In this document: positions 44,050 through 64,000 of the stretch, in pieces | Layout: each line of letters starts with the position of its first letter | Position numbering within the stretch: the first letter of the stretch is position 1 | Origin: Novosphingobium piscinae | GTDB lineage: Bacteria; Pseudomonadota; Alphaproteobacteria; Sphingomonadales; Sphingomonadaceae | Length of the DNA: 64,000 nucleotides | Direction of reading: 5' to 3' | Assembly (NCBI RefSeq): GCF_014230355.1 | Contig: NZ_JACLAX010000001.1 | Location: 1 to 64,000, forward strand | The notes under the pieces: model-generated | What the model was told of the DNA's origin: nothing | The model's input: the letters and a program-made list of their open reading frames with translations, nothing else | Database searches by the model: none | Made by a program: the position numbers and the translations under genes

Positions 44050-44201
44050 CCGTACTCCCTGCGCGCCCCGGCTCTCGAGTGAAAACGATTTGTTCGGGTC
44101 GTGCAAGTCCGGGCGCGCAGGGATTGACAGTCGCGTTCGCAGCGGGTGGAGCAAGGTCTACGGACGGCACCGGGCCGTCCCGAGCAGCAACAGGCGGACC
44201 G

Positions 44202-45074: not shown

Positions 45075-45183
45075 GCGCTACGGCTGCCGGGCGTGCGGCG
45101 TTGCCGCGGCGGCCACGAGGCGATAGGGCGCCGCGACGGGACTCGGGACCCGGAAGATCGAACGGGCGAGGCACGTTGCAGCT

Positions 45184-46940: not shown

Positions 46941-46945
46941 GCCGG

Positions 46946-49105
46946 TCAGGCAGGCTCGTAGGGCAGGGTGCGCAGGCGCTGCCCGGTCAGGCTGCTGATC
47001 GCATTGGCGAGGGCGGCGATCGCCGGCGGCATGGCCGGTTCCCCCAGCCCGGTCGGCGGATTGTCGCTGCGCACCATCGAAATGGCGATCTCGGGCACGA
47101 CATCGATGCGCGGCAGCGCATAGCCATCGAAGTTGGCCACCTGCACCTGGCCCTGGTCGATCGGCACCTTCAGCCCGGACAGGACATGGCCCATGCCCTC
47201 GATCACCGAGCCGCGAATCTGCTGCTCGGCATTGAGCGGGTTGATGATCGTGCTGCCGATGTCGCCGGCCACCCAGACCTTGACCGGGCGGATCCCGCCG
47301 TCCTCGCGGCGGCAGTCGGCCACTGCCGCGAAGTAGCCGCGGTGGCTGAAGTAGAACCCGAAGCCGCGGCCCGGCGTGGCGCCGCGCCACTCAGCCTGGC
47401 GCATCACCTCGCGGATCACGGTCGCGGCCCGGCCGGTGTCGAATGCAGGACTGCGGCTGCCGGCCGGCGGGGCGATCGATCGTGGCGCGCCCAGCAGGTC
47501 CAGCATCAGGTCGGGCAGGGTCTTGCCAGCCGCCGCCGCCACTTCGTCCAGAAATCCCTGGGTTGCGAAGGCCAGCGCATTGGAGCCCGGCGCGCGCAGC
47601 CAGCCGAGCGGCACATTCGTTTCCAGCACGGTCACGCCGAGATCGGCGTGGTCGACCAGCTCCGCCGGCACGGTGGCCTCGAGATCTGCGCCGCGGCCCG
47701 GCTTGCCATTGGCGCCGAAGGTCACGAGATGGTTCCGGAACGCAACGAGCTTGCCTGCCGCATCCAGCCCGGCTTCGAACTTGTGGAAGCCGGCGGCCCG
47801 GAAGAAGTCGAGCTTGAAGTCCTCCTGACGGTCGAACAGCAGCTTGACCGGCCGGCCCGGCAGTTCGCGCGCGATCGCCGCGGTCAGGGCCATGTAGTCG
47901 TTCTGCAGGCGGCGGCCGAAACCCCCGCCGGCGCGGGTCAGGTGGATGGTGATGTCGCCCGGAGCAAGACCCAGGGTCTTGGCGATCAGCGCGGCGCCGC
48001 CGCCCGGCAGCTGGGTGGGAGCCCACAGCTCGATCTTGCCCTCGGCGAAGCGCGCCGTGCAGTTTTGCGGCTCCAGTGTGGCGTGAGCGGCAAAGGGATA
48101 AGTGTAGGTCGCCGTCAGTTGCCGCGCCGAACCGGCCAGCGCCGTGGCTGCATCGCCCCGCGCCAGCACCGGGACCTGCGGCTTGCCGGCATGCGCCGCT
48201 TGCGCCGCTGCGGCAAAGGCCGCATCGGAATGGCGCTCGCGGCCCTCGTTGTCCCAGGTGGCCAGCAGCACCTTGCGCGCCTCGCTCGCCGTCCACCAGC
48301 TTTCGGCCACCACGGCAAGGGCATCGATCGGCGCATCGGCCTCGCCGATCCGGCGCAGCGGGATCACCTTGAGGACACCGGGGAGGGCCAGCGCCGGTGC
48401 GGCATCGAAGCTGCGCAGCACGGCGCCGCGCACCGGCGGGGTGAGCAGCGCGGCATGGACCATCCCGGGCAGCCGGGTGTCGATCCCGAACAGCGGCTCG
48501 CCCCTGACGATCGCCGGGGTATCGACCCCGCGCTGCGGCTGACCGATGATCGAGTAGCGGGCCGGGTCCTTCAGCGTCAGCGTCGCCATGGCGGGAACGG
48601 CCTGGCGGCTGGCGGCGGCGGCGAAGGCAGCATAGGGAGCGCGGCGGCCGCTGGCGGCATGGCTGACCTCGCCCGCAGCGGTGGTCAGCTGCGCCGCGGG
48701 CACACCCCACTGTTCGGCTGCGGCGGCGACGATCATGGCCCGCGCCGCGGCTCCGGCCTGCCGCATCGGCAACCAGTTGGTGGGCGTTGCCGTGCTGCCG
48801 CCGGCGACCTGCGGACCATAGCGCGCCGGATCGACCAGCGCCTGCTCGATCCGCACCGCGCTCCAGGCCACGTCGAGCTCCTCGGCGATCAGCATCGGCA
48901 GCATTGTCTTGACGCCCTGGCCGATCTCCGGGTTCTTGGCGATGATGGTCACGCTGTTATCCGGGTTGAGCCGGACGAAGGCGCCCAGCGCGGGGCCGGC
49001 GGCCGGGCCGGTGGCGGCGGTCGCCAGCTCGATGTCGAAAGCCAGCGCCCCGCCCGCGGCAAGCAGGGCCTTCAGCACAAAGCGGCGGTCGGTCTCAGCC
49101 GGCAT
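46946..49105 (-). CDS. Molybdopterin-binding subunit of a xanthine-dehydrogenase-family oxidoreductase (IorB-like)
   Basis: 719 aa. The start shows a twin-arginine-like [19 protein letters not shown], so periplasmic location is likely. Molybdenum cofactor segments include [21 protein letters not shown] and the catalytic Glu in [10 protein letters not shown] near the C-terminus. It is the one-chain catalytic subunit type of isoquinoline 1-oxidoreductase, hydroxylating N-heterocycles or aldehydes with water. The small iron-sulfur subunit overlaps it by 11 bases upstream. There is no adjacent cytochrome. Confidence 0.9.
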
Positions 49106-49595
49106 GTCCGGTCTCCCCGTCCCGGGCGGCGCGGCGGGTTCCCCCGGCGGCCGCCTGGTGGATCGCGGCGCGGATGCGGTGGTAGGTGCCGCAGCGGCAG
49201 AGGTTGCCGCTCATCGCCGCATCGATCGCGGCATCGTCGGGCCTTGGATTGGCGGCAAGCAACGAGGCCGCGCTCATGATCTGACCGGCCTGGCAATAGC
49301 CGCACTGCGGCACGTCCAGATCGACCCAGGCGGCGCGCAGGCGTTGCCCCACAGCGGTAGCGCCGACTCCCTCGATCGTGGTCACCTTGGCCTTGCCCAC
49401 CGCGCTCAACGGGGTCGAGCAGGAGCGCACCGCCTCGCCGTCGAGCAGCACGGTGCAGGCGCCGCACAGCCCCTGGCCGCAGCCGAACTTCGGCCCGCTG
49501 AGCGCCAGCTCCTCGCGCAGGACCCAGAGCAGCGGCTTGTCGCCGGGCGCCTCGACCGTTCGGGCTTTGCCATTGACCGTGAGTGCGAACTTCAT
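49095..49595 (-). CDS. [2Fe-2S] subunit of the molybdenum hydroxylase (IorA-like)
   Basis: 166 aa from the ATG at 49595. A plant-type [2Fe-2S] site [15 protein letters not shown] (about residues 39-53) and a second helical [2Fe-2S] site CGYCQAGQ with NLCRCGTY (about 98-135). It passes electrons from the molybdenum site to an outside acceptor. It carries no signal peptide, so it would be exported with the Tat-tagged large subunit. Confidence 0.93.
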
Positions 49596-49705
49596 GGGAT
49601 CCTTCCGTCGCGGGCGGGCATCTTGGCGCTCCGCTATCAACATGTTAGCCTGCGGCCTTCGCGGGGTGAACCCGCTTTCGCAGCCCCTGTCCGACAAGGC
49701 ACGGC

Positions 49706-50806
49706 TCAGCCGATCGCCCAGCCCGCCGCGTCATCGGGGGTGAAAGTCCGTGGGGGCAGACCGGCGTCACGCCCGATCCGGGCAAGGTAGTCGACCACAG
49801 CCGCGGCGCGCGGGCCGGCGGGAGTCGGGCGCCCGGGGGGCTCGAACCACAGCGGGATCAGCCCGGCCACCACCGCGCCATCGGCAGCGATCCGCAGGCG
49901 CCCGATCAGGCCGTACCGCGCATCGGGGTGGAACGGCGCCAGCGGATAGTCGGGCAGCGGCTCGAAGCCGAACAGCACCTTGCGACGCGCGGCCCATTCG
50001 GCCCTCGCTGGATGGTCCTGCGCCGGGGTCAGGGCATGGGTGACGACGCAGCCGTTGCCGAGACCGTGGAAGATCGGCTTGCCGCGATAGAGTTCGATCC
50101 CGCGGGCGATGTGGGCATGGTGTCCGGCTACCGCGTCAGCCCCGGCATCGATCGCCGCCTGGGCGATCGGGCGTTCGTAGGGGGCCAGTTCGGCAACGCG
50201 GTGAGTGATGCCCTTGTGCAGGGCAACGATCACGATGTCCGCCCGGGCCCGCGCCGCGGCGATGTCGTCCTGCATCGCCGCGAGCGAATCCGGGTCGATC
50301 ACGCGCAAGCGCGCCTGCGGTCGGCTGGGCCCGCCATCCTCGGCACGCACCGCGACATAGGCACAGCCGGGGCGCGCCGACCCGGCCCAGCACAGCTCCG
50401 GGCCGACGCAGTTGTAGCTGAGCAGCGCGACGCGGCGTCCGGCCCAGTCGAGCAAGGCCGGCGCGCGGGCACTGGCCAGATCGGGCCCGGCCCCGGCATG
50501 GGCAATGCCCTGGGCGGTCAGCCCGGCCATCGTGTCGGCCAGCCCGGTCGCGCCGCAGTCCATCATGTGGTTGCCGGCCAGCGAGACCGCGCCGATCCCG
50601 GCCCTGGCCAGTGTGGCGAGATGCGCCGGATCGGCCCCCGGGGCGGGCACGTCGCCGGCCAGTTCCTCGGTGCTGGTGGTGTGCGGCACCTCGAGATGGC
50701 CGATCACCAGCCCCGCGGCGCGGGTCAGCGGCGCGATCCCGCCCAGCCAGTGATCGGGGTCGGGCACGTCAAGGATCAGGTCGCCCAGCAGCAGCAGGTC
50801 GCTCAT
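49706..50806 (-). CDS. CapA-like metallophosphoesterase, last gene of the CoA/TRAP operon
   Basis: 366 aa from the ATG at 50806, which overlaps the CoA-transferase stop. It has the CapA/YwtB pattern: LLLGDLILD at the N-terminus, [19 protein letters not shown] (Asn-His of the phosphoesterase), VALHKGITH and [24 protein letters not shown]. Relatives take part in poly-gamma-glutamate capsule formation, but no capsule genes are present. There is no signal peptide, unlike many CapA proteins. Its role in a carboxylate/CoA operon is unknown. Confidence 0.85.
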
Positions 50807-51987
50807 GGCGACGGCTCCGCGTCCAGCGCCGCGATCTCTGCGGCCGACAGGCCAAGCTCGGCCAGCACTGACCCGGTATGTTCGCCCAGCGCCGGCACCC
50901 GCAGCGGCTCGGCTGGCGGCGTGGCGGCGAAGCCCGGGCCGAGCACCGTCAACGGATCTTCGTGCCCCGGCAGGTCGGCAGGCTGCACCAGTCCGCGCGC
51001 GGCGACATGGGGATGGCTGAGCGCCTCGCCGATATCGCGGATTCGCGCCGCGGGGACCCCGGCGGCGGTGAGCCGCAGCTCGAGTTCGGCCGCATTGCGG
51101 GTCAGCAGGTGCGTAGTCAGCCAGGCCTTCAGCTCGCCATAATGCGCGACCCGGTCCGCGTGGGTGGCGAAGCGTGGATCGCTGCCCAGCTCGGGGTGGC
51201 CCAGCTCGCGGAACAGGGCCTCGATCTGGTGCTGCATGTTCGCGCCCAGCGCGATCCAGCCATCGGCGGTGGCATAGTACTCGGCGGTGGCCACCAGGCG
51301 GAACCCGCGGTTGCCGGTGCCCTTGGGCGCGACCCCGGTGTAGGACCACATCGCCGCCGCCGTGCCCATGATCTTGAGTGCGGCGTCGAGCATGGCGATG
51401 TCAATGTGCTGGCCGGTCCCGCCCGCGTCGCGTTCGCGCAGGGCCGCCAGCACCCCGATCACCCCGAGATAGCCGGTGAAGCTGTCGACCACGGGCAGTC
51501 CGATCTTGAACGGGCGCTCGTCGAACCCGTTCATCATCGCCATGCCCGAGACGGCCTGGGCGATATGGTCGTAGGCGCCCCAGTCGCGCAGCGGGCCGTG
51601 TTGCCCGAACCCGCTGAGCGATACCATCACCAGCCGCGGATTGACCGCGTGGAGCGCGGACCAGCCCAATCCGAGCCGGTCGATCACCCCGGGGCGGAAG
51701 TTCTCGGCCACGATGTCGGCGCGCGCGGCGAGGCGCAGGGCCACGGCGCGGCCGGCGGCAGTCTTGAGATCGAGCACGACCGAGCGCTTGCCGGCGTTGA
51801 GCGCGGCGAAGGGCACGCTCATCCCCGGGGCGCCGGCGTGCTCGGTATAGTGGCGGAAGGCATCGCCGTTGCCCGGCGGTTCGATCTTGATCACCTCGGC
51901 CCCCAGCTGGAGCAGCATCTGGGTGCAGGTCGATCCGGCGATGGCGTGGGTGAAGTCGAGCACCCGCAGCCCGGCGAGCGGGCTCAT
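50803..51987 (-). CDS. CaiB/BaiF (type III) CoA-transferase 1
   Basis: 394 aa. It has the N-terminal LAGLRVLDFTHAIAGSTC, NAGKRSVVLDL, VAENFRPGVIDRLGLG and the expected catalytic Asp140 in WGAYDHIAQAVSG. It transfers CoA between carboxylic acids through an aspartyl-CoA anhydride. It is closest in pattern to formyl-CoA or succinyl-CoA-type members. It overlaps its neighbours by four bases on both sides. Confidence 0.92.
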   Translation of the reverse strand: MSPLAGLRVLDFTHAIAGSTCTQMLLQLGAEVIKIEPPGNGDAFRHYTEHAGAPGMSVPFAALNAGKRSVVLDLKTAAGRAVALRLAARADIVAENFRPGVIDRLGLGWSALHAVNPRLVMVSLSGFGQHGPLRDWGAYDHIAQAVSGMAMMNGFDERPFKIGLPVVDSFTGYLGVIGVLAALRERDAGGTGQHIDIAMLDAALKIMGTAAAMWSYTGVAPKGTGNRGFRLVATAEYYATADGWIALGANMQHQIEALFRELGHPELGSDPRFATHADRVAHYGELKAWLTTHLLTRNAAELELRLTAAGVPAARIRDIGEALSHPHVAARGLVQPADLPGHEDPLTVLGPGFAATPPAEPLRVPALGEHTGSVLAELGLSAAEIAALDAEPSP

Positions 51988-53174
51988 GCTCCGCGCTCCG
52001 CCGAGAAGGCGCCGCGCGCTTCGAGCTCGGCCGGGTCGAACCCCAGTGCGGCAAGCAGCGCGGCATTGTCCGCCCCCGCCGGCCCGGCCGGGCGCGGCGG
52101 CACCGGCCTGGTCGCGCTGAAGCCGAAGGGCAGGGACAGCTGGCGCACCGGCACCGCATCGTCGGGCAGGGCGACCGCCTCGACCCGGCCGCGCGCGGCG
52201 TGGTGAGGGTGGCTCAGGCCTTCCTCGGGGCTGTAGACCGGCATGGCCTGGCTGCCGGCAGCAGCCAGCAGCTCGGCCCAGGCGTCACGCGGGCGGGTGG
52301 CCAGGATCGCGGCAATCTCGGCCTGGAGCGCCGGGTGTCCGCCCAGATCGTGCTGCCGCGAGGTCAGATCAGGGCGGCCGATCGCGCTGCAGAACCGCGC
52401 CCACGAGGCCGGCTCCATGTCGGTGGTGCACAGATAGCCGCCATCGGCACAGCGCCAGACCCCGCCCTTGGGGTGCCAGGTCCCGAGCGCCGCCAGGTCG
52501 TCGAGATTGTCGTGGCGGCCCAGCGAGACGAGCTGCAGTTGCAGCGCGGCGTCGGACATGGCGACATCGACATGCTCGCCCGTGCCGCGCCGGGTGCGCG
52601 CCTGGAGCGCCAGCAGCAGCGCGATGGTCGCGCTCATTCCGGTCAGGGTGTCAGCCACCTGCAGGCCGGGCAGCGCAGGTTCGGGGTGGCCGCCCAGCCG
52701 TCCCAGCGCGCCGGCGAGAGCGAGGGCGAGGGGATCGTGCCCGGCGCGCTCGGCCAGCGGGCCGGTTTGGCCGGCGAAGCTCACCGAGAGGTAGACCAGC
52801 CGGGGGTTGAGCGCCTGCATCGCGGCATGGCCATAGCCCATCGCGGCCATCACCCCGGGGCGGTAGTCCTCGATCAGCACGTCGGCCCCGGCGATCAGGC
52901 GGTGCAGCACCTCGCGGCCGGCCGCGGTGCCGGGATTGATCCGCAGGCTGCGCTTGTTGCGGGCATAGGTGGGCCGCGCCCGGCGCCGCGCCGCGGCGCG
53001 CGGATCGTCCTCCGCCCCGAACAGGGCTTCCGCCTTGGCCAGTTCGCGCGGGTGCTCGACGCGGATCACCTCCGCGCCCATCTCGGCCGCGACCCAGCCA
53101 GCATAGGCGGCGGGGAGGAACCGCGAGAAGTCCACCACCCGCAGGCCGGACAGGGCAGAAGGATCAGCCGCCAC
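51984..53174 (-). CDS. CaiB/BaiF (type III) CoA-transferase 2
   Basis: 396 aa, GTG start at 53174 inside the end of the dehydratase-like gene (11-base overlap). It has the family pattern LSGLRVVDFSRFLPAAYAG, RNKRSLRINPGTAAGRE, LIEDYRPGVMAAMGYG and the presumed catalytic Asp147 in RAGHDPLALALAG. It is less canonical than its neighbours around the active site (LALALAG for xxQAxSG), so substrate range or partner role may differ. Confidence 0.88.
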   Translation of the reverse strand: MAADPSALSGLRVVDFSRFLPAAYAGWVAAEMGAEVIRVEHPRELAKAEALFGAEDDPRAAARRRARPTYARNKRSLRINPGTAAGREVLHRLIAGADVLIEDYRPGVMAAMGYGHAAMQALNPRLVYLSVSFAGQTGPLAERAGHDPLALALAGALGRLGGHPEPALPGLQVADTLTGMSATIALLLALQARTRRGTGEHVDVAMSDAALQLQLVSLGRHDNLDDLAALGTWHPKGGVWRCADGGYLCTTDMEPASWARFCSAIGRPDLTSRQHDLGGHPALQAEIAAILATRPRDAWAELLAAAGSQAMPVYSPEEGLSHPHHAARGRVEAVALPDDAVPVRQLSLPFGFSATRPVPPRPAGPAGADNAALLAALGFDPAELEARGAFSAERGA

Positions 53175-55521
53175 AGCGCCGCGCCGCCCGCTCCCGCGCC
53201 GGTCCCTCGATAAAGGCGGTGATCGCCGCCTCGATCGCGGCGGCGTCCTCGTCCTCGCGGTTGAAGTTGTCCGCAGTCAGCTCGAGCACCGGAATCCCCG
53301 CCGCGCGCAGGGCGCGGACCACGAACGGATCGGCGTCCTGCAGCGCCACTGCGGCATCGATCTGATGCGTCCTGGCCTCGTGCACGTGCCAGGGACCGGC
53401 CCAGGTCGGCATGCGCAGCTCATCGCCCATGCAGACGATCCGGCTGGCCAGTGCGCGCAGCGGGTCCTGCCCGCGCGACAGGTCGCGGATATAGCCGTCG
53501 GCGGCCAGCGCCAGATACATCGACCAGACGAATACGGCGCCATGGCTGTCCTCCCACTTCTGGTAGAAGCCCATCTCGCTCCACAGCCCGCGGCCGACCC
53601 ACATCAGGCGGATCCGCTCGGCCGGACAGGCGCCCAGCCCGGCCTCGGCGCGGGCGCAGACCTCTTCGTAGAAGGCCTTGGCGGCATCGCGCGCCCAGAC
53701 CGTGCCGCGGTGCCACTGCGGGACCATCGTCGCGGGCATGGAATCGACCACCCCGATCGGCGCCGGGACGGTGCGGGCGACGAGGTCGCGGGTCTTGCGG
53801 TAGTAGTCCTCCTGCTCGTTCACCAGGGCCATGACCTCGGCCAGCCGGGCGGGATCGAAGCGGCGGCCCGTGCGCGATTCGATCCGGGTGATCACCTCGC
53901 GCATCTCGGTCACCAGCAGGTCGATGCGCGCGGACTCGACCGCGGTCTCCCAGTGGTCAGGCAGCTGCTGCCACCAGTCGACGTAGAGGTCGGGGCGGGG
54001 ATCGATCGTGCGCTCGTAGATGAAGCAGTCGGCCCCGCTGGCCTCGCCCCACTCGGTGAACAGCTTGAGCGTCGGGTCGGACGAGGCGACGGCATGGACG
54101 AAGTCGGGCCGCGGCAGGCCACCCCACGGGGCCAGGTCGGCCACGTCGTCGAACAGCGCGGCCAGGCCCTGGGCCGAATAGGCCTCGACATCGGCGGGCA
54201 GGTCATGCGCGCGGAGCAGGTCCTGATAGCGCCGCGACTGCTGCTTGGCGGCGACGATCGAGGCCCACCACTGGTTGACCACGAAGGGCACGTCGAGTGC
54301 GCGCAGGATTTCCTGCGGGGCATTGGCATTGACCACGGCAAAGGGCGCCCCAGCGGCGACGGCCTCGCGCACCGAGGCGAACCAGTCGCGCTGCCACGCG
54401 TTGACGTCGGCGGTCGAGCGCAGGACCTTGCGGCTGCGCGCCGGTGCAGGACGCGGTGAGGCCGGCGGTTTGGGCGCCGGGCTGGCGGCGGCGACAGGCG
54501 CGCCCGGCCCGGGTCCGAGCGCCGCAGCGAGGGCCGCGGCAAAGCCCGCGTCGGGGGCGCTCGCGCAGCGCATTGCGGCGAAGGCGCAGTCGGCCGGCAG
54601 GGCGCGGCGGATCGCGGCGACGTCCCACGGCGCCGCCTCGTCGCCGTCGATCGCCAGGTGCAGGACCAGCGCGGGGCGGAGCTGCGCGGCCGCCACGGCG
54701 ACCTGGGCGGCGGTGGCAGCCGGGGCGGTGACGCGCGCCGGAGCGGCGAGCCGCGTGAGGCCCCACCCGTGCACCTCGCCGACGATGGTGCAGCCCGCCG
54801 CCTCGATCGCGCGGTAAAGCCGGTCATCCTCGTGCGCGGTGCCGCAGACCAGCACGGGGGTGCCGGAGGGGCGCGCGGGCAGGTCGGCGGCGAGCAAGGC
54901 GGTCAGCGCGCCCTCGGCCTCGGCGGCGGGCAGCACCGCGCAGGCCCCGGCGATGACCAGCGCGTCGCACCCGCTGATCCGCCCGGCCCGGCGCAGGCCG
55001 TCGATGCGGCCGAGCAGCGGCGCCAGCGCGGGCGCCGGTCCGGTGTGGTCCGCGCTGGCCGGGCCGCCGAGCCCGGCCAGCCAGGCGTCGAGCTCGTCAA
55101 GCCGCACGGCGGTGTAGGCGCGCGAGGCGGGGCGATCGAGGTGCAGCCGGTCGAGGAAATGGACATGGCGCGGGACGCCTTCGCCCAGCCGGCCCAATTC
55201 GCGCAGGGCGGCAAAGATCTGGGGCTGATCGCCATCGGCCTGGGTGATCAGCACCGGCACATCGGGATGGTCGAGGGTCAGCAGCGTCTCGAGCAGCCGT
55301 CGCCCGCGCGGGCCGAGCTCGGCCGCGCCCATCACGGCATCGGCGCGCGGCGTCGCAGGCAGGGGCGGGGCGACCAGGCGGATCGGCTGGAAGCCTGCGG
55401 CGATCAGCCGCTCGCGCGGGGCATCGACCCCGAGCGTGCGCAGCGGCCGCCGCCCGGCGGCCAGGGCCCGCGCCACCTCGGCCGCCGGATCGGCATAGGC
55501 GCGGCGGAACGGCTCGAGCAT
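53164..55521 (-). CDS. Fused 2-hydroxyacyl-CoA dehydratase-like protein (two HgdA/HgdB-type halves)
   Basis: 785 aa. Residues 1 to ~335 resemble an HgdB/BcrC-type half (RERLIAAGFQPIRLV, then SGCDALVIAGACAVLP). A Pro/Ala-rich linker (336-366) leads to a second half (about 370-785; GAPFAVVNANAPQEILRAL, RPDFVHAVASSDPTLKLF). Known enzymes of this group use a [4Fe-4S] cluster held by cysteines and need an ATP-driven activator. Here the expected CD motif reads ASSD (479-482), the other expected Cys of the second half sits at YSAQGLAAL without Cys, and the first half shows TQADGDQ. No activator gene is near. Radical dehydration is therefore doubtful; another CoA-ester or carboxylate-binding role is possible. 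Confidence 0.75.
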   Translation of the reverse strand: MLEPFRRAYADPAAEVARALAAGRRPLRTLGVDAPRERLIAAGFQPIRLVAPPLPATPRADAVMGAAELGPRGRRLLETLLTLDHPDVPVLITQADGDQPQIFAALRELGRLGEGVPRHVHFLDRLHLDRPASRAYTAVRLDELDAWLAGLGGPASADHTGPAPALAPLLGRIDGLRRAGRISGCDALVIAGACAVLPAAEAEGALTALLAADLPARPSGTPVLVCGTAHEDDRLYRAIEAAGCTIVGEVHGWGLTRLAAPARVTAPAATAAQVAVAAAQLRPALVLHLAIDGDEAAPWDVAAIRRALPADCAFAAMRCASAPDAGFAAALAAALGPGPGAPVAAASPAPKPPASPRPAPARSRKVLRSTADVNAWQRDWFASVREAVAAGAPFAVVNANAPQEILRALDVPFVVNQWWASIVAAKQQSRRYQDLLRAHDLPADVEAYSAQGLAALFDDVADLAPWGGLPRPDFVHAVASSDPTLKLFTEWGEASGADCFIYERTIDPRPDLYVDWWQQLPDHWETAVESARIDLLVTEMREVITRIESRTGRRFDPARLAEVMALVNEQEDYYRKTRDLVARTVPAPIGVVDSMPATMVPQWHRGTVWARDAAKAFYEEVCARAEAGLGACPAERIRLMWVGRGLWSEMGFYQKWEDSHGAVFVWSMYLALAADGYIRDLSRGQDPLRALASRIVCMGDELRMPTWAGPWHVHEARTHQIDAAVALQDADPFVVRALRAAGIPVLELTADNFNREDEDAAAIEAAITAFIEGPARERAARRCGG

Positions 55522-56771
55522 CAGATCGCCCCGGCGGCCTTCAGCGCGGCGATCTGGTCCTCGTCATAGCCAAGGTAGTCGCGCAGGATCGGCTGGTTGT
55601 GCTCACCGATCCGCACCGGCAGGGCATCGTCGAAGCCGGTGGTCGCGCCGGAAAACTGGATCGGCACCCCGGCGGTCCGCAGATCGATGTTCGAGCGGTA
55701 GCTGGGGTGCTTGACCGCCATGGTCTCCTGCCGCGCCACCACCCGTGGGTCGACCAGCGCGTCTTCCGGGTGGCGCACAGGTGCGGCGGGCACCCCCTGC
55801 GCCTCGAGCGCGCGCAGCACTTCGACCATTGGCAGGGCGCTCGACCAGGCGTTGATCCGCGCCTCGAGCTCGGTGGCATTCGCCACGCGCATGTCGCGGC
55901 TGCAGAAGCGCGGGTCCTCGGCCAGCTCGGGTTGGCCCATGGCTGCGAACAGCCCGCGTGCCAGCGGCTCGTGCACGGCGACCACCGCGACATAGCCGTC
56001 GGCGCAGGCGAACACCCCGAACGGCGAGAGCCGCTGCACGGTCAGCCCGGTGCGGGCCGGCATGCCCGCCGCGGCCATGGCCGACCAGTTCTCGATCGCC
56101 ACGAACGAGGTGAGGGCGCCGAGCATCGAAACGTCGACATGCTGGCCAACCCCGGTGCTGTGGCGTTGCTCGATGGCGGCGAGGATACCGATGACGGTGA
56201 ACACCGGGGCCAGCATGTCGGCGATCGGGATGCCGATGCGGACCGGGGGCTGGCCGGGTTCGCCGCTGGTGAACATGGCGCCGGACAGGGCCTGGATGAT
56301 CACGTCCATCGCCTTGCCGTCGCGGTCGGTCGCGCCGAACCCGGAGAGCGAGGCGAAGACCAGGCGCGGATTGACCGCACGGCATGCGTGGTAACCGATA
56401 CCCAACCGGTCGGCGGTACCCGCGGTGAAGTTCTCGACCACGACATCGGCCTTGCGGACGAGGTCGAAGTATACCCCCTTGCCCGCATCGCTCTTGAGGT
56501 CGAGCGAGATGCCGTACTTGCCGCGCGCGCGGGTGAGGTGCGAAATCGAGATGTCGTCCTCGTGGCGGCGCTCGACGATCACCCCCTCGCGTCCGACATA
56601 GGGGCTGTTCTCGCGCGCGAGATCCCCGCCCTTCGGTTCCTCGACCTTGATCACCTTGGCGCCAAGGCCGGCGAGCAGCATCGTCGCATAGGGCCCGGCC
56701 AGCGCGCGGGTCAAGTCGATCACGGTCAGGCCTTCGAGCGGGCGGTGGGTGAGGTCGCTGCCGTTGCTCAT
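55521..56771 (-). CDS. CaiB/BaiF (type III) CoA-transferase 3
   Basis: 416 aa. A canonical member: LEGLTVIDLTRALAGPYATMLLAGLGAKVIKVE opens the protein (shown here as family pattern), then RGKYGISLDLKS, VVENFTAGTADRLGIGY and the catalytic Asp156 in GKAMDVIIQALSG. The stop touches the start of the fused dehydratase-like gene (TGATG) and its start overlaps dctP. It probably activates the acid brought in by the TRAP transporter. Confidence 0.93.
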   Translation of the reverse strand: MSNGSDLTHRPLEGLTVIDLTRALAGPYATMLLAGLGAKVIKVEEPKGGDLARENSPYVGREGVIVERRHEDDISISHLTRARGKYGISLDLKSDAGKGVYFDLVRKADVVVENFTAGTADRLGIGYHACRAVNPRLVFASLSGFGATDRDGKAMDVIIQALSGAMFTSGEPGQPPVRIGIPIADMLAPVFTVIGILAAIEQRHSTGVGQHVDVSMLGALTSFVAIENWSAMAAAGMPARTGLTVQRLSPFGVFACADGYVAVVAVHEPLARGLFAAMGQPELAEDPRFCSRDMRVANATELEARINAWSSALPMVEVLRALEAQGVPAAPVRHPEDALVDPRVVARQETMAVKHPSYRSNIDLRTAGVPIQFSGATTGFDDALPVRIGEHNQPILRDYLGYDEDQIAALKAAGAI

Positions 56772-57850
56772 CGGGGGGTGCTCATCGGGTTAACTCCGGA
56801 AGATGGGCGCGCGCAGGCGATCGCGCCGGCGGCGATGAGGCGCTGGGCCTCGCGGAACACGGGCAGGCCATCCAGTCCGACATCGGCAAGGCGGCGTGCC
56901 TGGTCGATCGCGAACCGGTTGTAGAGCGCGTCGAGCTTGGCCTGTTCCGGCGCGGGGAAGGGGATCATCTCGACGCCGTGGCCGGCGGCATAGGCGATCC
57001 CGGCATGTTCGGCCTTGAGCACCTCGTCGGCAAGGGCGGCCTCCCAGATCCGGCGCGAATCCCGCAGCAGCGTCTGGAGATCGGGGGGCAGCCGCCGCCA
57101 CGCCTGGTCCGACATGGCCCGCGCCGGATAGGCCCCGCGGCTGAAGCGCAGGCTGGTGAAATGGTGCGCCACCTCGGCGAAATGCAGGCTCTTGATCGTA
57201 TCGGCCGGCGCGACCACGCCATCGATCACGCCCTTGGCCAGGGCCGAATAGACCTCGCCCATTGGCATGTTGACCGGATCCGCGCCCAGTGCGCGCAGCA
57301 CGTCGATCGCATCGCTCTGCGCGCGCAGGCGCAGGCCCTTGAGGTCGGCCAGGCTGTGCACCGGCCGGTTGCGCGTCAACACACCAGGGAAATTGCCGCC
57401 CTGCGCGGCCAGCACGTGCAGGCCCTTGAGTTCGTCGCCGAAGGCGGGGAAGCGCTGGTCAAGGCAGTCATAGACCGCGACCTGATCCTCGATCGTCCGG
57501 ATTCCGCCGTAGAAGCCCGACTGCGCGCGCAGCATGTGCGCGCCGCCGCGGGTGTAGATCGGGGTGATCAGGCCGATGTCGGCGAGGCCGTGGCGGATCT
57601 CCATCATCGACATGTCCGACGAGAGCAGCGCGCCCGACCAGTAGGGCTTGATCCGGATGCGCCCGCCGCTGGCCCGCTCGACGTGTTTCATCCACGTGAT
57701 GTCGGCCTTGGAGAAGGGGTGGGTCGGCGGATAGGGGCTGGCGTAGGTCAGGAGGTGCGGGGCGTCGGGGGCAGGGCGACTGCAGGCGGACAGGACCAGG
57801 CCCAGCAGCAGGGCGAGCAGCAGCGAAGGGAGGATGCGCATCGGGGTCAT
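56768..57850 (-). CDS. TRAP transporter solute-binding protein (DctP family), lipoprotein
   Basis: 360 aa from the ATG at 57850 (ATGA overlap with dctM; an ATG at 57841 is possible). The lipobox LVLSACS places it on the outer face of the inner membrane. DctP features include YASPYPPTHPFSKADITWM near the start, the carboxylate-binding Arg region GLRLRAQSDAIDVLRALGADPVNMPMGEVYSAL (conserved residues cited as a region) and GVIDGVVAPADTI. It captures a carboxylic acid and delivers it to DctQM. Confidence 0.9.
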   Translation of the reverse strand: MTPMRILPSLLLALLLGLVLSACSRPAPDAPHLLTYASPYPPTHPFSKADITWMKHVERASGGRIRIKPYWSGALLSSDMSMMEIRHGLADIGLITPIYTRGGAHMLRAQSGFYGGIRTIEDQVAVYDCLDQRFPAFGDELKGLHVLAAQGGNFPGVLTRNRPVHSLADLKGLRLRAQSDAIDVLRALGADPVNMPMGEVYSALAKGVIDGVVAPADTIKSLHFAEVAHHFTSLRFSRGAYPARAMSDQAWRRLPPDLQTLLRDSRRIWEAALADEVLKAEHAGIAYAAGHGVEMIPFPAPEQAKLDALYNRFAIDQARRLADVGLDGLPVFREAQRLIAAGAIACARPSSGVNPMSTPR

Positions 57851-59151
57851 CCCGCCACCAGCCCGGGCAGCCACAGCGCCAGCGCGGGGACCGCGATGAT
57901 CGCGGCGAGGTGAAGGAAGTCGGCGACGAGGAACGGGATCACCCCGCGGAAGATCGTGCCGAGCGACAGGTCCCGGGCGAGGCCCTGGATCACGTAGATA
58001 TTGAGCCCGAGGGGCGGGTGGACGAAGCCGATCTCCATCGTGCGGACCAGGAAGATGCCGAACCAGATCGGGCTGTAGCCGAGCTGCTCGGCGATCGGCA
58101 GGAAGATCGGGGTGGTCAGCAGCATCAGCGCCACGCCGTCCAGGAACGAGCCCAGCAGCAGCAGGATCAGCGTCATCGCGATGATCGCCACCACCGGGCT
58201 GGCGTGCAGATCGCTGACTGCGCCGGACAGGGCCTCGGTGATCTCGCTGGCCGAGATGAAGTTGGCGAACAGCAGCGCGCCGATGATCACCACGTAGATC
58301 ATCCCCGCGGTGCGCAGCGTGGCACGCAGGGCTCCGGCTACCGCGGCGCGGGTGAAGCCGCCGCGCACCGCGAGCAGGAGCAGTGCTCCGACCACGCCGA
58401 CCGAGGCGGCCTCGGTGGGGGTGAACCAGCCGATCATCAGGCCGCCGATCACGAACAGCATCAGCGCGAAGATATCGGCCACCTGGCGCAGCGCGGGCAG
58501 GCGGTCGCGCCACGGCACGCGGACCGTGGCCGGACCCAGCTCGGGCCGCCACAGGCACAGCAGGGCGATCGTGGCCATGTAGGAGAGAGCCTGGGTCGCC
58601 CCCGGGACGATCGCGGCGGCGAACAGCTTGCCGATCGACTGTTCGGCGATGATCCCGAAGACGATCAGCGCCCCCGAGGGCGGGATCAGCGAGCCCAGGG
58701 TGCCGCCGGCGGCAAGAGCGCCCGCGGCGAAGCCCGGATGATAGCCGGCGCGGCGCATTTCGGGCAGGGCAACCGAGCTGATCGTCGAGACCGTGGCGAG
58801 GCTCGAGCCGCTGATCGCGCCGAACCCGGCGCATCCGCCGATCGAGGCGAGCGCCAGCCCGCCGCGGCGGTGGCCGAGGAACTTGGCAGCCACATCGAAG
58901 AAATCGCGGCTGGCACCGGCGGCGAAGCACAGATGGGCCATCAGCAGGAACAGCGGCAGGACTCCCAGCTCGTACTTGGAGATCACCTCGAACGAGACCA
59001 CCCCGGCCTTGATCACGGCAGCCTCGGGCGCGATCATCACGGCCAGGCCGCCGATCCCGACGAGCATCAGCCCGACCCCGATCGGCACTCCGCTGGCCAG
59101 GAGCAGCAGCAGCATGGCGATGCCCAGCGCGCCGATGAGTTCGGGCGCCAT
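57847..59151 (-). CDS. TRAP transporter large permease (DctM)
   Basis: 434 aa from the ATG at 59151. About 12 hydrophobic helices with the DctM signatures ISGSSLATVSTI, PEMRRAGYHPGFAAGALAAGGTLGSLIPPS (region about 150-180) and WFTPTEAASVGVVGALL. It drives Na+- or H+-coupled uptake of a carboxylate together with DctQ and DctP. Its stop overlaps dctP and its start touches the dctQ stop. Confidence 0.93.
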   Translation of the reverse strand: MAPELIGALGIAMLLLLLASGVPIGVGLMLVGIGGLAVMIAPEAAVIKAGVVSFEVISKYELGVLPLFLLMAHLCFAAGASRDFFDVAAKFLGHRRGGLALASIGGCAGFGAISGSSLATVSTISSVALPEMRRAGYHPGFAAGALAAGGTLGSLIPPSGALIVFGIIAEQSIGKLFAAAIVPGATQALSYMATIALLCLWRPELGPATVRVPWRDRLPALRQVADIFALMLFVIGGLMIGWFTPTEAASVGVVGALLLLAVRGGFTRAAVAGALRATLRTAGMIYVVIIGALLFANFISASEITEALSGAVSDLHASPVVAIIAMTLILLLLGSFLDGVALMLLTTPIFLPIAEQLGYSPIWFGIFLVRTMEIGFVHPPLGLNIYVIQGLARDLSLGTIFRGVIPFLVADFLHLAAIIAVPALALWLPGLVAG

Positions 59152-59678
59152 CAGCGGGTCTCGCCAGTCGGTCGGGCCAGCGCCCGTCGCAGGAAGGTCA
59201 GCGCGATCAGCCCGGCAAAGCCGATCCACAGCACGCGCAGCCAGCGAATCGGCAGGTGGAGCAATTCGGTCCGTTCGAACCCTGACCACAGCTCGGCCGT
59301 GACCCAGGCCGCGCCGACCGCGACGACCAGGAACACTGCGGCGCTGAGCAGCGCAGCTATCCGTGCCAGCCGGGCCGCCACCCGGCGGGGCAGGCGCTCG
59401 GTGACCATGTGGACCGAGGCATGCTCGCCCTGCAGCGTGGCGATCAGCATGGCCGATCCGGCCAGCAGAACCGCCGCGGCCTGGACCAGCTCGATCGAGC
59501 CGAGCAGGTGGAAGCCGGCGTGCCGCCCGGCGACGGCGATCGCATCGGCCGCGGTCGCGCCCAGCAGGCCACAGCCGCCGAGGGCATAGACCAGCCGCAG
59601 CGCCGGGCCCGCCTCGCGTGCCGCGGCGCCGGGCCCGCGTTCCGCGGACGGCGCGTGATCGGGTTCGGTCCGTTCCAT
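59151..59678 (-). CDS. TRAP transporter small permease (DctQ)
   Basis: 175 aa with four hydrophobic segments (about residues 28-50, 58-83, 103-130 and 142-162) after a charged N-terminal tail, the normal DctQ topology. The segment QGEHASVHMVTERLP between helices 2 and 3 is typical. GGAGAGG lies just upstream of the ATG. It is the first gene of the eight-gene leftward operon, with a MarR gene diverging 122 bp away. Confidence 0.88.
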   Translation of the reverse strand: MERTEPDHAPSAERGPGAAAREAGPALRLVYALGGCGLLGATAADAIAVAGRHAGFHLLGSIELVQAAAVLLAGSAMLIATLQGEHASVHMVTERLPRRVAARLARIAALLSAAVFLVVAVGAAWVTAELWSGFERTELLHLPIRWLRVLWIGFAGLIALTFLRRALARPTGETR

Positions 59679-59800
59679 GCCTCTCCTGCTCCGCGGTCGT
59701 CCCAGTTGACAGCCCCCAGGGCCGCGCCTCTAATGGGGCACCATCTGCGACAGTAGATTATTTCAACTATTTTTCTTGTCAATCATCTGCAGGCATCGAC

Positions 59801-60292
59801 ATGGCGAGCACTTCCACCCCCCAGCCGCGTGGCCCCGAGCCTGAGCGCTCCGAGGTTGCGCTGGGCCGCCTCGGCGACTTCGTCGGGTTCCGCCTGCGGC
59901 GTGTCCAGAACCAGCTGTCGCGCAAGTTCGCGGCGGCCAACGCCGATCTCGGCCTGCGTTCCGGCCTGTTTTCCTCTCTCGCCATCGTGGCGGCCAATCC
60001 CGGCATATCGCAGAGCGAACTCTCCGGTGCAGTCGGTCTGGACAAGTCGGTGACAGTCACGATCATCGACGAGCTCGAGAAGTATGGCTGGGCCGAGCGG
60101 CGACGTTCGGCCGAGGACCGGCGGCGGCACGCGCTCTATGTCACGCCCGAAGGCGATCGCCAGCTTGATCGGCTGTTCGCCCGCATGGAGGAGGTGGAGG
60201 GCGCCGTGCTCCACCAGCTCAGCGATGCCGAGCACCAGATGCTGAATGACGTGCTCGACCGGATGTACGATGCGGTGGTGCGCGAACTTTGA
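59801..60292 (+). CDS. MarR family regulator
   Basis: 163 aa from the ATG at 59801. A winged-helix MarR core: FRLRRVQNQLSRKF, ISQSELSGAVGLDKSVTVTIIDELEKYGW and the wing RRRSAEDRRRHALYVTPEG. It diverges from the TRAP/CoA operon and precedes a TonB receptor, so it may repress one or both. AGTTGA elements occur on both sides of the gene (59704, 59763-59769 on the other strand, 60318-60336). Confidence 0.9.
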   Translation: MASTSTPQPRGPEPERSEVALGRLGDFVGFRLRRVQNQLSRKFAAANADLGLRSGLFSSLAIVAANPGISQSELSGAVGLDKSVTVTIIDELEKYGWAERRRSAEDRRRHALYVTPEGDRQLDRLFARMEEVEGAVLHQLSDAEHQMLNDVLDRMYDAVVREL

Positions 60293-60336: not shown

Positions 60337-60489
60337 ATCTCCGATTAATGAGCAAGAACCGGCGGTAAACCGTCGGCAGGCGCGAATCCGGCAAACGGAC
60401 AGGCCTTGGAGAGGATAGGTTCGGCGCCGCGGCGCATGGCCCGCTGAGGATCCAGGATCCTGTCCCTTGCCGGAGTGAGGGAGGACATG

Positions 60490-63183
60490 ATGGGACAATC
60501 CGCTAAGCTCGTTTCGCACGGGTCCAGTCTGGCGCTGGCACTCGCCTTGCTGGCACCGGCTGCCGCCGCGGGCCAGATCGCCACGTCGCCCGATGCCACC
60601 CCTGCTGCGGCGGACGATGCCCAGCCGGAGATCGTCGTCACCGGCACGTCGATCCGCGGCCAGGCGCCGGTCGGCTCGTCGGTGATCTCGCTTGGCCGCG
60701 CCCAGATCGAATCCTCCACGGCTGTGACGGTCGACCGCATGATCAAGGAGATCCCCCAGAACTTCGACCTCGGCGTGTCGGAGAACTCGCGCGGGCAGTC
60801 GGGCGGCTCGGGCAACATCACCTACGGCAACTCGGTCAACCTGCGCGGCATCGGGCCCTATGCCACATTGGTACTGATCGACGGCCACCGGGTGACCTAC
60901 AACAGCCGCTCGATCGATCCCTCGGTCCTGCCGACGCTTGGCGTCGAGCGGGTCGAGGTGGTCGCGGACGGCGCCTCGGCGATCTATGGCTCGGACGCCG
61001 TGGCAGGCGTGGTCAATCTCATCCCGAGGCGCAGCCTCGATGGCGGCGAGGTCTTCGCCCGCACCGGCATCGCCCAGCAAGGTGACCTGCGCGAGATCAC
61101 GCTCGGCGCAGCGCTGGGCAAGGTGTTCGACCGCGGCCAGGTGATGGTGGCCTTCGAGCACGTCGAACGCTCCAACCTGTCGGGCGACGACCGCGCCTTC
61201 TTCACTTCGAACTTTACCCCATTCGGCGGACCCGACGGGCGCACCACCCGCTGCTTTCCGGGCACGATCCGCGCCGGCGGGGTGACCTATGCTATCCCTC
61301 AAGGCGGGGTGACCCAGGCGACCGCCGGAAGCCTGGTGGCCGGCACCAGCAACCGCTGCGAACTGCTCGCCAATCAGGACCTGATGCCCCGGCAGCACTA
61401 CAATTCGGTCAACGGCACGGCCACCTTCGAGGTCAGCGACTCGATCAAACTGTCGCTCGACGGGTTCTTCTCAAGGCGCGAATTCTACCGCAAATCGGCC
61501 TGGAGCTCGGCCACGATCACCGTGCCCCAGACCAATGCCTTCTTCGTGCGGCCAGCCGGTTTCACCGGAACAAGCTACACGGTCGACTACATGTTCCGCG
61601 AACTGCCGGCCAACGATTCCTATGGCTATGCCCAGAGCTGGCAGATCACGCCGAAGCTGACGATCAAGCTGCCCCACGACTTCCAGTTCGAGGCACTCGC
61701 CGGCTATGGCAAGACCAACGACAATTCGACCTCGCTGTATGGGATCAACAATGCGGCCCTCAACGCCGCCCTGGCGAGCAACGATCCCAATGCGGCCTTC
61801 GATCCCTATGGCCTCGGCCGCACCAATCGCGCGCTCTACGCCACCCTCGCCAACCAGATCTTCCTGGCGCCGACCAACGGCCGGCTGAAGACCTATGAGG
61901 CCCGGCTGAACGGCAGCCTGTTCGAGCTGCCGGGCGGGTCGGTCAAACTGGCCACCGGCTATGCCCGCCAGGACTTCACCGTGGCGCTCGGCTCGGCTCG
62001 TGGCGGACCGACCACGCCGTTGGTGTTCCGCAATTTCGGGCGCAAGATCGATTCAGTGTATGGCGAGCTCTACGTCCCGCTGTTCGGGCCAGACAACGCC
62101 GTGCCCGGCTTCCAGAAGCTCGAGGTCAATGCCGCGGTCCGGCACGACAAGTACAGCGATGTCGGCGGGACCACGAATCCCAAGTTCGGGGTCAACTGGA
62201 TGCCGGTCGACGGACTCAAGCTCCGCGGCAGCTACGGCACGTCGTTCCGCGCGCCGACCATCCCCGAGATCTACGGCAATTCCAACAACCTGTTCGTGCA
62301 GAACTACTCGGTACCCGCGGGCGGCACCCTGATCGGCGTTGCGCTGTCGGGCCAGAACCTGGGACTCAAGCCCGAAACCGCCACGACCTGGTCGGTCGGC
62401 GCCGATTTCACCCCGGTGAGCGGCCTCAACCTCGGGCTCACCTACTGGGACGTGAACTACAGGAACCAGGTCATCGCCAACCTCTCGAACCTGGCGATCC
62501 TCGGCGACCTGCCGTTCTATGCCGGCACCAACGTGGTGTTCCAGGGTGCTGCGGCGGCCACCCAGGTGCAGAACTACATCAACGCCGGGATCGGCGTGGT
62601 CGGCGCCCTGCCAGGGGGCAGTGCGGCCAATGTCACGCTGTTTGTCGACGGCCGTGGCCAGAACCTCGGGGCTTCGCGCACCCGCGGCTTCGACTTCACC
62701 GCCGATTATGCGCTGACGCTCGGCAACGGTGACCGGCTTGGCGTGCTGGTCGGCGGGACCTATCTGACCAGCTATCGGATCTCGGTCGCGCCCAGTGCGC
62801 CGCTGGTCGACCGGCTCAACACGATCTTCAACCCGCTGCGCTTCAAGGTGCGCAGCGTTGTGACCTGGGATCATGGTCCGGTCAGCGCGCGGCTGCAGTG
62901 GATCCACGTCAACGGCTATCGCAACATCGCAGCCAGCCCGGTGCAGCAGGTGCGCGCCTACAATCCGGTCGATTTCTCGGTCAACTGGCGGATCGGCGAT
63001 CGCAGTGCCGCAGGCTTCTTCGAAAAGGGCATCACCCTTGGCCTGGAAGTGCGCAACCTGTTGAACGAGCGGCCGCCTTACGTGAACATCTCGCCCAGCG
63101 GGAACGGCAGCGGCGGTTACGATGCCACCGCGGCCGACCCGACCGGCCGGCTGTTCGCCGCCACGGTGCGCAAGGCGTTCTGA
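60490..63183 (+). CDS. TonB-dependent receptor (third)
   Basis: 897 aa from the ATG at 60490, five bases after GGAGG; an ATG at 60487 and a GTG at 60475 are less well spaced. The signal peptide ends near AAAAG (about residue 28). A TonB-box-like EIVVTGTSI is followed by the plug (DRMIKEIPQNFDL, VNLRGIGPYATLVLIDGHR, DGASAIYGSDAVAGVVNL) and a barrel ending in ATVRKAF. The CocE-like hydrolase gene starts at its stop codon. Cargo is unknown; MarR control and the nearby CoA operon hint at an aromatic or carboxylate-type compound. Confidence 0.92.
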   Translation: MGQSAKLVSHGSSLALALALLAPAAAAGQIATSPDATPAAADDAQPEIVVTGTSIRGQAPVGSSVISLGRAQIESSTAVTVDRMIKEIPQNFDLGVSENSRGQSGGSGNITYGNSVNLRGIGPYATLVLIDGHRVTYNSRSIDPSVLPTLGVERVEVVADGASAIYGSDAVAGVVNLIPRRSLDGGEVFARTGIAQQGDLREITLGAALGKVFDRGQVMVAFEHVERSNLSGDDRAFFTSNFTPFGGPDGRTTRCFPGTIRAGGVTYAIPQGGVTQATAGSLVAGTSNRCELLANQDLMPRQHYNSVNGTATFEVSDSIKLSLDGFFSRREFYRKSAWSSATITVPQTNAFFVRPAGFTGTSYTVDYMFRELPANDSYGYAQSWQITPKLTIKLPHDFQFEALAGYGKTNDNSTSLYGINNAALNAALASNDPNAAFDPYGLGRTNRALYATLANQIFLAPTNGRLKTYEARLNGSLFELPGGSVKLATGYARQDFTVALGSARGGPTTPLVFRNFGRKIDSVYGELYVPLFGPDNAVPGFQKLEVNAAVRHDKYSDVGGTTNPKFGVNWMPVDGLKLRGSYGTSFRAPTIPEIYGNSNNLFVQNYSVPAGGTLIGVALSGQNLGLKPETATTWSVGADFTPVSGLNLGLTYWDVNYRNQVIANLSNLAILGDLPFYAGTNVVFQGAAAATQVQNYINAGIGVVGALPGGSAANVTLFVDGRGQNLGASRTRGFDFTADYALTLGNGDRLGVLVGGTYLTSYRISVAPSAPLVDRLNTIFNPLRFKVRSVVTWDHGPVSARLQWIHVNGYRNIAASPVQQVRAYNPVDFSVNWRIGDRSAAGFFEKGITLGLEVRNLLNERPPYVNISPSGNGSGGYDATAADPTGRLFAATVRKAF

Positions 63184-64000
63184 TGCGCTGGCTGGCCGCC
63201 GGGCTGGCCGCCGCGTTGGCCGTGGCGGGAACCGGGGTGGCGGGTCAGGCCGTCCCGGTGCCGCCGCCGACCCTGACCCCGGCCGAGGTCCCCGCCTCGT
63301 TCGGGCACTACCAGCCGCCTCGGCGCTACCATGAACAGGTCACCCACTCGTTCTATGTGACGTTGCGCGACGGCACCCGGGTCGCCATGCTGGTCGCCCG
63401 CCCGGCGCAGGGCGGGCAGCCGGTCGAAGATCGGTTTCCGGTCATCTGGCATCACTCGCTGAGCGCCACCCAGCAGCCTGCCGACGGTGTCGGCTCGCGG
63501 GCGGCCGGCTTCGTGACCATGCCCAACCTGACCGACCACGGCTATGTCGTGGTCCAGGTGGCGCGGCGCGGCAACGGCCAGTCGTTCGGCACGATGCGCG
63601 GCTACCATGACCGCAACGAGGCGCACGATGCCTATGAGCTGATCGAGTGGCTGGCGCGTCAGCCCTGGTCCAACGGCAACGTCGGCCAGTATGGCTGCTC
63701 GAACACGGGCGATGCCGCGGCCCATGCCATGTCGGTCAACGCCCCGCATCTCAAGGCCGTGTTCGCCGGGTGCTTCTCCTGGAACAAGTACGACGCGATG
63801 CGGCGCGGCGGGATTTTTGCGCAATGGGGCACAGGACCTACCCGCACGATCGCGCAGGACATGGCGGTCCGCCCGGTCGACAGCGATCCCGACAAGGTTC
63901 TGCTGCGCCTGGCGGCCGAGCAGCACCAGCGTGCGGTCCCGCTGTTCGAGGTGTGGAAGGCCCTGCCCTATCGCGACAGTTTCTCACCCCAGCTCCAGAG
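63183..64000 (+). CDS. CocE/NonD-type hydrolase, exported, cut by the window end
   Basis: ATG at 63183 overlapping the TonB receptor stop by one base (TGATG); the frame is open to the last base (272 complete codons). Residues 1-22 form a signal peptide (LAAGLAAALAVAGTGVAG). The Xaa-Pro-peptidase/CocE pattern is seen in LRDGTRVAMLVARP, GYVVVQVARRGNGQS and the elbow region GQYGCSNTGDAAAH, where the expected GxSxxG nucleophile reads GCSNTG. It probably cleaves an ester or acyl bond of the compound imported by the receptor. The C-terminal jelly-roll domain is outside the window. Confidence 0.8.
   Translation, partial: MRWLAAGLAAALAVAGTGVAGQAVPVPPPTLTPAEVPASFGHYQPPRRYHEQVTHSFYVTLRDGTRVAMLVARPAQGGQPVEDRFPVIWHHSLSATQQPADGVGSRAAGFVTMPNLTDHGYVVVQVARRGNGQSFGTMRGYHDRNEAHDAYELIEWLARQPWSNGNVGQYGCSNTGDAAAHAMSVNAPHLKAVFAGCFSWNKYDAMRRGGIFAQWGTGPTRTIAQDMAVRPVDSDPDKVLLRLAAEQHQRAVPLFEVWKALPYRDSFSPQLQ

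Follow-up and report, generated by a model that had tools for sequence, protein, structure and literature searches.

The stretch analysed here (the window) comprises 64,000 nucleotides of Novosphingobium piscinae, positions 1 to 64,000 of the forward strand of contig NZ_JACLAX010000001.1 (GCF_014230355.1). At 53164..55521 on its minus strand, it carries an intact open reading frame (ORF) for a fused protein of 785 residues (P0001) that resembles the 2-hydroxyacyl-CoA dehydratase (HGD-D) superfamily, whose members are known as oxygen-sensitive enzymes that carry out radical chemistry at very low potential. It is close to certain that the fused protein has lost both of its iron-sulfur clusters, and it likely performs chemistry of another, non-radical kind on compounds of coenzyme A (CoA). 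An earlier note, made from the sequence alone, had described a fused HgdA/HgdB-type pair lacking cluster cysteines; that observation as a whole is confirmed, and its interpretation is partly supported.

Architecture and loss of the cluster ligands

In the predicted model, two structurally similar subunits are combined in one chain. The N-half (residues 1-341; 54499..55521, minus strand) has the BzdN fold, is BzdN/HadC-like, and has lost the canonical cysteine columns of the beta-subunit, whereas the C-half (residues 364-785; 53167..54432, minus strand) has the BzdO fold and represents the BzdO/HadB-like active-site half. Both are joined by a Pro/Ala linker at about residues 342-363 (54433..54498, minus strand), as judged from the sequence and from low blocks (61-77) of the predicted local distance difference test. 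The C-half matches PF06050 with 139 bits against the curated cut-off of 28.4, and the N-half alone stays below this cut-off with 21.3 bits. The PF06050 match of the C-half and the predicted folds of the halves bear out the HgdA/HgdB-type pairing and rule out membership of another superfamily. The fused protein reaches 61.3 bits against the cut-off of 750 for the HadB model, 39.3 against 448.6 for TIGR03191 (benzoyl-CoA reductase equivalog), and 23.6 against 350 for NF040772 (double-cubane cluster protein, DCCP). As modelled, it is of the HGD-D superfamily fold, yet it lacks the cofactor features by which the dehydratase and reductase families are defined. A chance ORF is ruled out by the family matches, the homologues, and the ratio of nonsynonymous to synonymous substitution rates (dN/dS), which is well below 1 in the N-half and the C-half alike. 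Intact fused genes occur in records of Novosphingobium, Sphingomonas, Caulobacter, and Phenylobacterium. Match numbers are lower bounds, because each protein homologue search scored roughly 8,000 candidates and gave a list of 120. One metagenomic protein (P0134) has a truncated enoyl-CoA hydratase domain joined to the C-half, which is either a genuine fusion or an artefact of assembly.

Passages of PMC11971306 describe the catalytic [4Fe-4S] cluster of BzdO as coordinated by Cys95, Cys128, Cys380, and a water or hydroxide that is adjoined by Glu65 and His131, with Tyr97, Tyr298, and Gln274 located at the thioester oxygen; the cluster coordination of HadB is given as that of BzdO. In the family alignment, the three alpha-subunit cysteine columns of the fused protein correspond to E446 (54184..54186, minus strand, as for all residues below) in place of Cys95, S481 (54079..54081) in place of Cys128, and a deletion at residues 731-732 (53326..53331) of the loop containing Cys380. 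In all nine B-type benzoyl-CoA reductase controls, cysteines occupy the columns of E446 and S481 as well as the loop that is deleted here (row L044 is left out of these residue counts and of the constraint counts). Alignment with HadB and MbdO places E446 on the first cysteine, Y448 on the tyrosine two residues later, and Q417 on the glutamate, and alignment with BzdO places Y669 on Tyr298. Moreover, in direct alignments, reductase control cysteines fall on BzdO Cys95 and Cys380, and cysteines of the unfused sister from locus L027 fall on BzdO Cys95 and Cys128 and on the third cysteine of MbdO and HadB.

The alignment of 118 fused proteins (two of the 120 listed, shorter than 700 residues, were left out) contains no conserved cysteine column, the most cysteine-rich column having cysteine in 58 of 118 proteins. 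The 193 fused proteins longer than 700 residues have 3.9 cysteines on average and a minimum of 0. Fewer than six are present in 153 of them, which therefore have no room for two three-cysteine clusters, and two or fewer in 55, in which not even one such cluster is possible. A conserved cysteine elsewhere in the chain is ruled out by this alignment and these counts. The N-half also lacks a conserved cysteine in the fused-protein alignment, and thus the cluster ligands of the beta-subunit. In one HHalign alignment, the N-half has a gap, F103, and D294 opposite Cys84, Cys111, and Cys341 of the control C-type subunit, three cysteines that are fixed in 10/10 rows and that we take from related structures to be its cluster ligands. 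The absence of cluster cysteines proposed earlier is borne out; three cysteine ligands per half at other positions, or another superfamily, either of which would have overturned it, were looked for and not found.

The thioester contacts are kept, with Y448 (54178..54180) equivalent to BzdO Tyr97 and Y669 (53515..53517) to Tyr298; both are present in all 102 aligned rows. The acid-base glutamate of the BzdO Glu65 type is replaced by Q417 (54271..54273), where the number 65 is read by ungapped extension because the BzdO alignment begins two residues past this position. This column has Glu in 9/9 controls and Gln in 91 of 93 branch members (51/51 Cys-bearing and 40/42 Cys-free). The loss of the glutamate beside the cluster water of BzdO in nearly the whole branch strengthens the non-radical interpretation. 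In addition, invariant motifs of the C-half, including W418, R605, W647, and Y669, are kept across Cys-bearing and Cys-free members.

Activase distribution and the unfused sister family

HgdC is an ATP-dependent activase of this superfamily. In the N. piscinae genome, which is 99.92% complete, there are 0 matches to TIGR00241 or PF01869, which rules out an activase encoded elsewhere in the genome and extends genome-wide the earlier report of none in the operon. The host is a probable aerobe with genes for O2 respiration, as had also been supposed. In a class sample of 289 genomes, PF06050 is above cut-off in 13; all ten with adjacent PF06050 subunit pairs have TIGR00241, and the remaining three, which are branch genomes (G000, G014, and G175), have none. 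PF06050 is matched in 30 genomes of the order survey, and besides N. piscinae 14 of them were tested for TIGR00241, including all ten others of the N. piscinae family; TIGR00241 is present in 0/10 of these ten and in 4/4 tested genomes with reductase-type pairs. G838 and G818 have no TIGR00241 either. Altogether, TIGR00241 occurs in 14/14 genomes with reductase-type subunit pairs (ten class, four order), of which one pair is named by curated models (L029 and L041, one genome) and the others are defined as an adjacent PF06050 pair plus activase. It occurs in none of 15 branch genomes (N. piscinae and 14 further), and the fact that eight of these hold an unfused Cys-bearing copy strengthens the non-radical interpretation again. 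The 14 controls do not include G699, which matched more distantly in the phylum survey and has activases, and G013 of the class survey, with a sub-threshold PF06050 score of 21.2 bits and no activase, is in neither count.

The unfused sister family was searched from L027, with at least 381 matches, of which 120 were listed and 119 used (one not over 400 residues was left out). Cysteine stands at each of the E446, S449, and S481 columns in 114/119 sisters and at a fourth position, whose column shifts with the alignment used, in 113/119. S449 (54175..54177) marks the column of an extra cysteine found in the sisters and not in the reductase controls. Five of the 119 are Cys-free, one of them from Nonomuraea (P0325). 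The sisters (P0218 of L027, P0260 of Phenylobacterium soli, and L054) show 38-42% identity to the C-half and share its NQWW and PQW.RG motifs and Q417. In contrast, their C-subunit keeps three or four cysteines whereas the fused protein has none at these columns, and their N-subunit, where found, is a separate gene rather than part of one chain. The fourth cysteine is lost in the copy on plasmid p1 of Novosphingobium sp. ES2-1 (L054) and in nine similar loci (two near-identical), which have a similar cassette of CocE-type hydrolase, TonB receptor, CapA, tripartite ATP-independent periplasmic (TRAP) transporter, and CoA-transferases. With an N-half profile, a separate N-subunit gene is found in 5/10 of these loci, and by eye the N-subunits of L052 and L054 have no ligand-like cysteine. 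At four further loci (L095, L057, L104, and L096), the HGD-D-like protein is unfused and Cys-free, its ligand columns hold quite dissimilar residues, and an N-type partner ORF is present. Downstream of the Cys-bearing copy in L027, a metagenome-assembled genome, proteins resembling a glycyl-radical-enzyme activase and a glycyl radical enzyme were recognized by eye (L027:7340-10867); the branch may also live in hosts with anaerobic metabolism.

A quick tree of 102 rows, built without the cysteine columns and with several long branches, shows three changes of cysteine state. The approximately unbiased test rejects a single Cys-free clade (p 0.011, for a group chosen after the tree was seen), and with the Cys-bearing outgroup as reference the direction is taken as loss rather than gain. 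In a 103-row tree, the rows labelled fused group together. Within the C-half, 76 columns reach 90% identity or more in each of two groups, the main Cys-free clade (39 rows) and the Cys-bearing rows (51), and 40 of these 76 residues (hand count of the list) are absent from all 9 controls. Since the Cys-bearing rows have Gln417 and share the conserved columns, the change of the active site seems earlier than the loss of the cluster. From these sequences, the branch seems to have altered its active site first and to have retained its own pocket afterwards.

Proposed reaction and competing explanations

Three type III CoA-transferases are encoded with the fused gene on the minus strand, namely A (55521..56771), B (51984..53174, with an 11 bp overlap with the fused gene), and C (50803..51987). 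All three match PF02515 and keep the conserved Asp, which we take to be the catalytic residue of this enzyme type, and the trio named by the earlier note thus holds. Shorter homologues of about 330 residues (L012:6596-7588, L053:13569-14576, L027:2726-3769, and others) have Tyr or Trp in place of Asp in 8/8 cluster members and in L053, and are probably non-catalytic partners, judging by this replacement; BbsE presumably also has a chain without the catalytic Asp. The cassette recurs in 26 loci besides the window (three contigs are cut), and the 27 contain an HGD-like gene in 27, CoA-transferase in 25, TonB receptor in 24, MarR in 24, CocE-type hydrolase in 20, DctM in 20, CapA in 15, DctP in 14, and DctQ in 12. 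These are undercounts, as ORFs were picked by codon-position GC and DctP, CapA, and MarR of the window itself were missed. Among the 26 gene groups recurring at least three times, no CoA-ligase, thioesterase, or beta-oxidation family was found in those scanned or named from the window (this leaves four unscanned groups and one assigned by eye to a transporter). With several CoA-transferases and none of these families in the scanned groups, a closed CoA loop fits.

A passage of PMC11574389 holds that ordinary protein bases are insufficient to eliminate an alpha-hydroxyl from an acid or thioester and that a radical route is used. In the fused protein, the ketyl or radical route looks closed because cluster, activase, and glutamate are all missing, and we therefore infer another type of reaction, one that draws on the acidic alpha-carbon of the thioester. 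Taken as a whole, a cluster-free, non-redox acyl-CoA reaction, with CoA-transferases supplying and recycling CoA, is the best explanation and is favoured somewhat above even chances. Its non-redox character is likely, and the enzyme would be an isomerase, epimerase, or lyase. In the proposed sequence of events, the CocE-type hydrolase would cleave an ester, the organic acid would be taken up via the TonB receptor and the TRAP transporter, and a CoA-transferase would charge it with CoA. The CoA ester would then occupy the old substrate channel, its carbonyl held by Y448 and Y669, and side chains that now line the cavity left by the cluster, for which D482, E446, and H719 are candidates, would use the acidic alpha-proton of the thioester with no electron transfer. 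A CoA-transferase would finally move CoA from the product to the next substrate, so that free acid enters and free acid leaves, and the Cys-free BzdN-like half would be a structural lid binding the CoA tail.

Near 46 loci (45 and the window), p-hydroxycinnamoyl-CoA hydratase/lyase genes were found in 3, tannase-type in 6, Rieske-type oxygenase in 5, vanillin-dehydrogenase-like in 6, and PETase-like esterase in 17, with queries drawn from the same loci and no background count; the Rieske and vanillin dehydrogenase labels are our own reading rather than family cut-offs. The PETase-like esterase, a weak Pfam match, lies beside the cassette, e.g., at L054:16285-17208. Without background control, the presence of esterase, tannase, and hydroxycinnamate genes around several of the copies directs attention to plant aromatic esters. 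A wider account, in which aerobes repeatedly stripped the clusters from the scaffold to obtain an activator-free acyl-CoA enzyme with a novel reaction and a closed CoA loop for hydroxy-acids of plant aromatic esters, is tentative and somewhat doubtful.

Several points weigh against the cluster-free, non-redox explanation. Two of the 27 cassette loci are without a CoA-transferase, L024 on a cut contig and the complete-looking L023 (Phenylobacterium), in which the fused gene has no recognized CoA-transferase within about 10 kb. The closed CoA loop is drawn from genes absent from the cassette, not from the genome. D or E at 482 also occurs in 24/51 Cys-bearing rows. E446 and H719 are no shared substitute, since the two Cys-free lines that fall outside the main Cys-free clade, L057 with L095, and L104, have Pro at 446 and one of Phe, Tyr, and Ala at 719, and L096, which belongs to that clade, has Ala at 446 and Asn at 719. 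No common substitute ligand set was found among the 42 Cys-free rows, only D or E at 482 being present in all. Most genomes lack the gene, with PF06050 matched in 30/246 of the order and the sister profile in 5/398 of the phylum survey. A simple picture is also complicated by G014 and G175, which have no TIGR00241 but each have one PF01869 protein above cut-off (frames of 291 and 297 residues), far from the cassette, and one further weaker match; these proteins are tentatively taken for another kind of that ATPase family.

Among the alternatives, a non-catalytic role, as a carrier or scaffold for the CoA ester between the CoA-transferases, is unlikely, though it survives best. It agrees with a tyrosine pair of the CoA site kept despite the loss of the catalytic groups of the parent family, with CoA-transferase genes at 25/27 loci, and with the Asp-less short CoA-transferases, by which non-catalytic subunits may be normal in this system; however, the long invariant motifs of the C-half (W418, R605, W647, and Y669) exceed what a carrier would appear to need. 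Slightly less probable still is a 2-hydroxyacyl-CoA dehydratase in which a mononuclear metal on, e.g., E446, D482, and H719 replaces the cluster as Lewis acid. These positions have E or D at 446 in 38/42, D or E at 482 in 42/42, and H at 719 in 35/42 Cys-free members, and the pairing with type III CoA-transferases resembles FldA-FldBC, FldA being a type III CoA-transferase that pairs with FldBC. In contrast, Cys-free lines outside the main clade are without E446 and H719, and the passage cited above makes the radical route necessary for alpha-hydroxyl elimination from a thioester. As a cluster-free Fld-type dehydratase is chemically unlikely on the same account (PMC11574389), the FldBC parallel drawn by the earlier note probably fails at the reaction itself. 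Clusters with non-cysteine ligands exist, according to a passage of PMC11574389, but an iron-sulfur cluster still bound through such ligands or through other cysteines is very improbable in a family with no conserved cysteine and 55 of 193 members at two cysteines or fewer. A decaying relic without function, which the poorly conserved N-half below the Pfam cut-off might suggest, is the least credible of all, given the low dN/dS in both halves, the long invariant motifs, and the intact genes in four genera.

Known systems, genomic surroundings, and significance

Compared to class I benzoyl-CoA reductases (BzdNO, BcrBC/BadDE type), the fused protein has the same predicted fold of its halves, the N-like then O-like order, and the thioester tyrosine pair. 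In contrast, it has no cluster cysteines in either half, Gln for the Glu65-type residue, a single chain, and scores far under the family cut-offs, and its host has O2 respiration genes and no activase match. With HadBC, HgdAB, and FldBC it shares the fold and PF06050, and its gene stands beside type III CoA-transferases like FldA with FldBC, but it lacks [4Fe-4S] ligands and its genome an HgdC-type activase. Unlike DCCP, it has no conserved cysteines for a double cubane and no PF01869 protein in the genome. Benzylsuccinate CoA-transferase (PDB 9fn0) and other two-chain type III CoA-transferases also have several CaiB-type chains per system, whereas three or four chains plus an HGD-D-like protein occur here. 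Among the papers listed in searches of open-access PMC articles, none dealt with this branch.

The fused gene lies in a minus-strand run of eight genes from 59678 to 49706, with overlaps of 1-11 bp between adjacent genes, in the order TRAP small permease DctQ (59151..59678), TRAP large permease DctM (57847..59151), TRAP solute-binding protein DctP (56768..57850), CoA-transferase A, the fused gene, CoA-transferases B and C, and a PGA_cap/CapA-like protein of 366 residues (49706..50806). On the opposite strand are a MarR-type regulator (59618..60292; its actual start is probably further in), which groups with an L002 regulator that matches Pfam MarR, a TonB-dependent receptor (60475..63183), and the 5' part of a CocE/NonD-type (Pfam S15) hydrolase (63288..64000) that the window end cuts. 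By tblastn, this hydrolase is 92% identical to the L005 copy, and its S15 family call is taken from the L002 copy. The CapA-like protein has a distant likeness to the lasso-peptide epimerase model MslH (NF038314; 7e-29, under cut-off) and also matches PDB 8gq9; as a candidate epimerase for the pathway, suggested by this likeness, it is worth testing. Beside the operon, 44079-49697 contains genes for an amidohydrolase-like protein (by eye), an FAD monooxygenase, a DUF3237-like protein, and a molybdenum oxidoreductase, several of which are also near the cassette in L005. Further away, at 39316-41264 on the minus strand, 4-hydroxyphenylpyruvate dioxygenase and phenylalanine 4-monooxygenase genes are each above their cut-off.

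In a superfamily of oxygen-sensitive radical enzymes, a large branch in aerobes such as Novosphingobium and Sphingomonas has neither the clusters nor the acid-base glutamate, has no activase that could be found, and keeps its contacts to the CoA ester, which suggests that the HGD-D scaffold can serve another function. Annotation of these proteins as "2-hydroxyacyl-CoA dehydratase" in public records probably misleads pathway predictions. Moreover, the natural series from four cysteines to three to none, and from two genes to one, lets the need for the cluster be tested.

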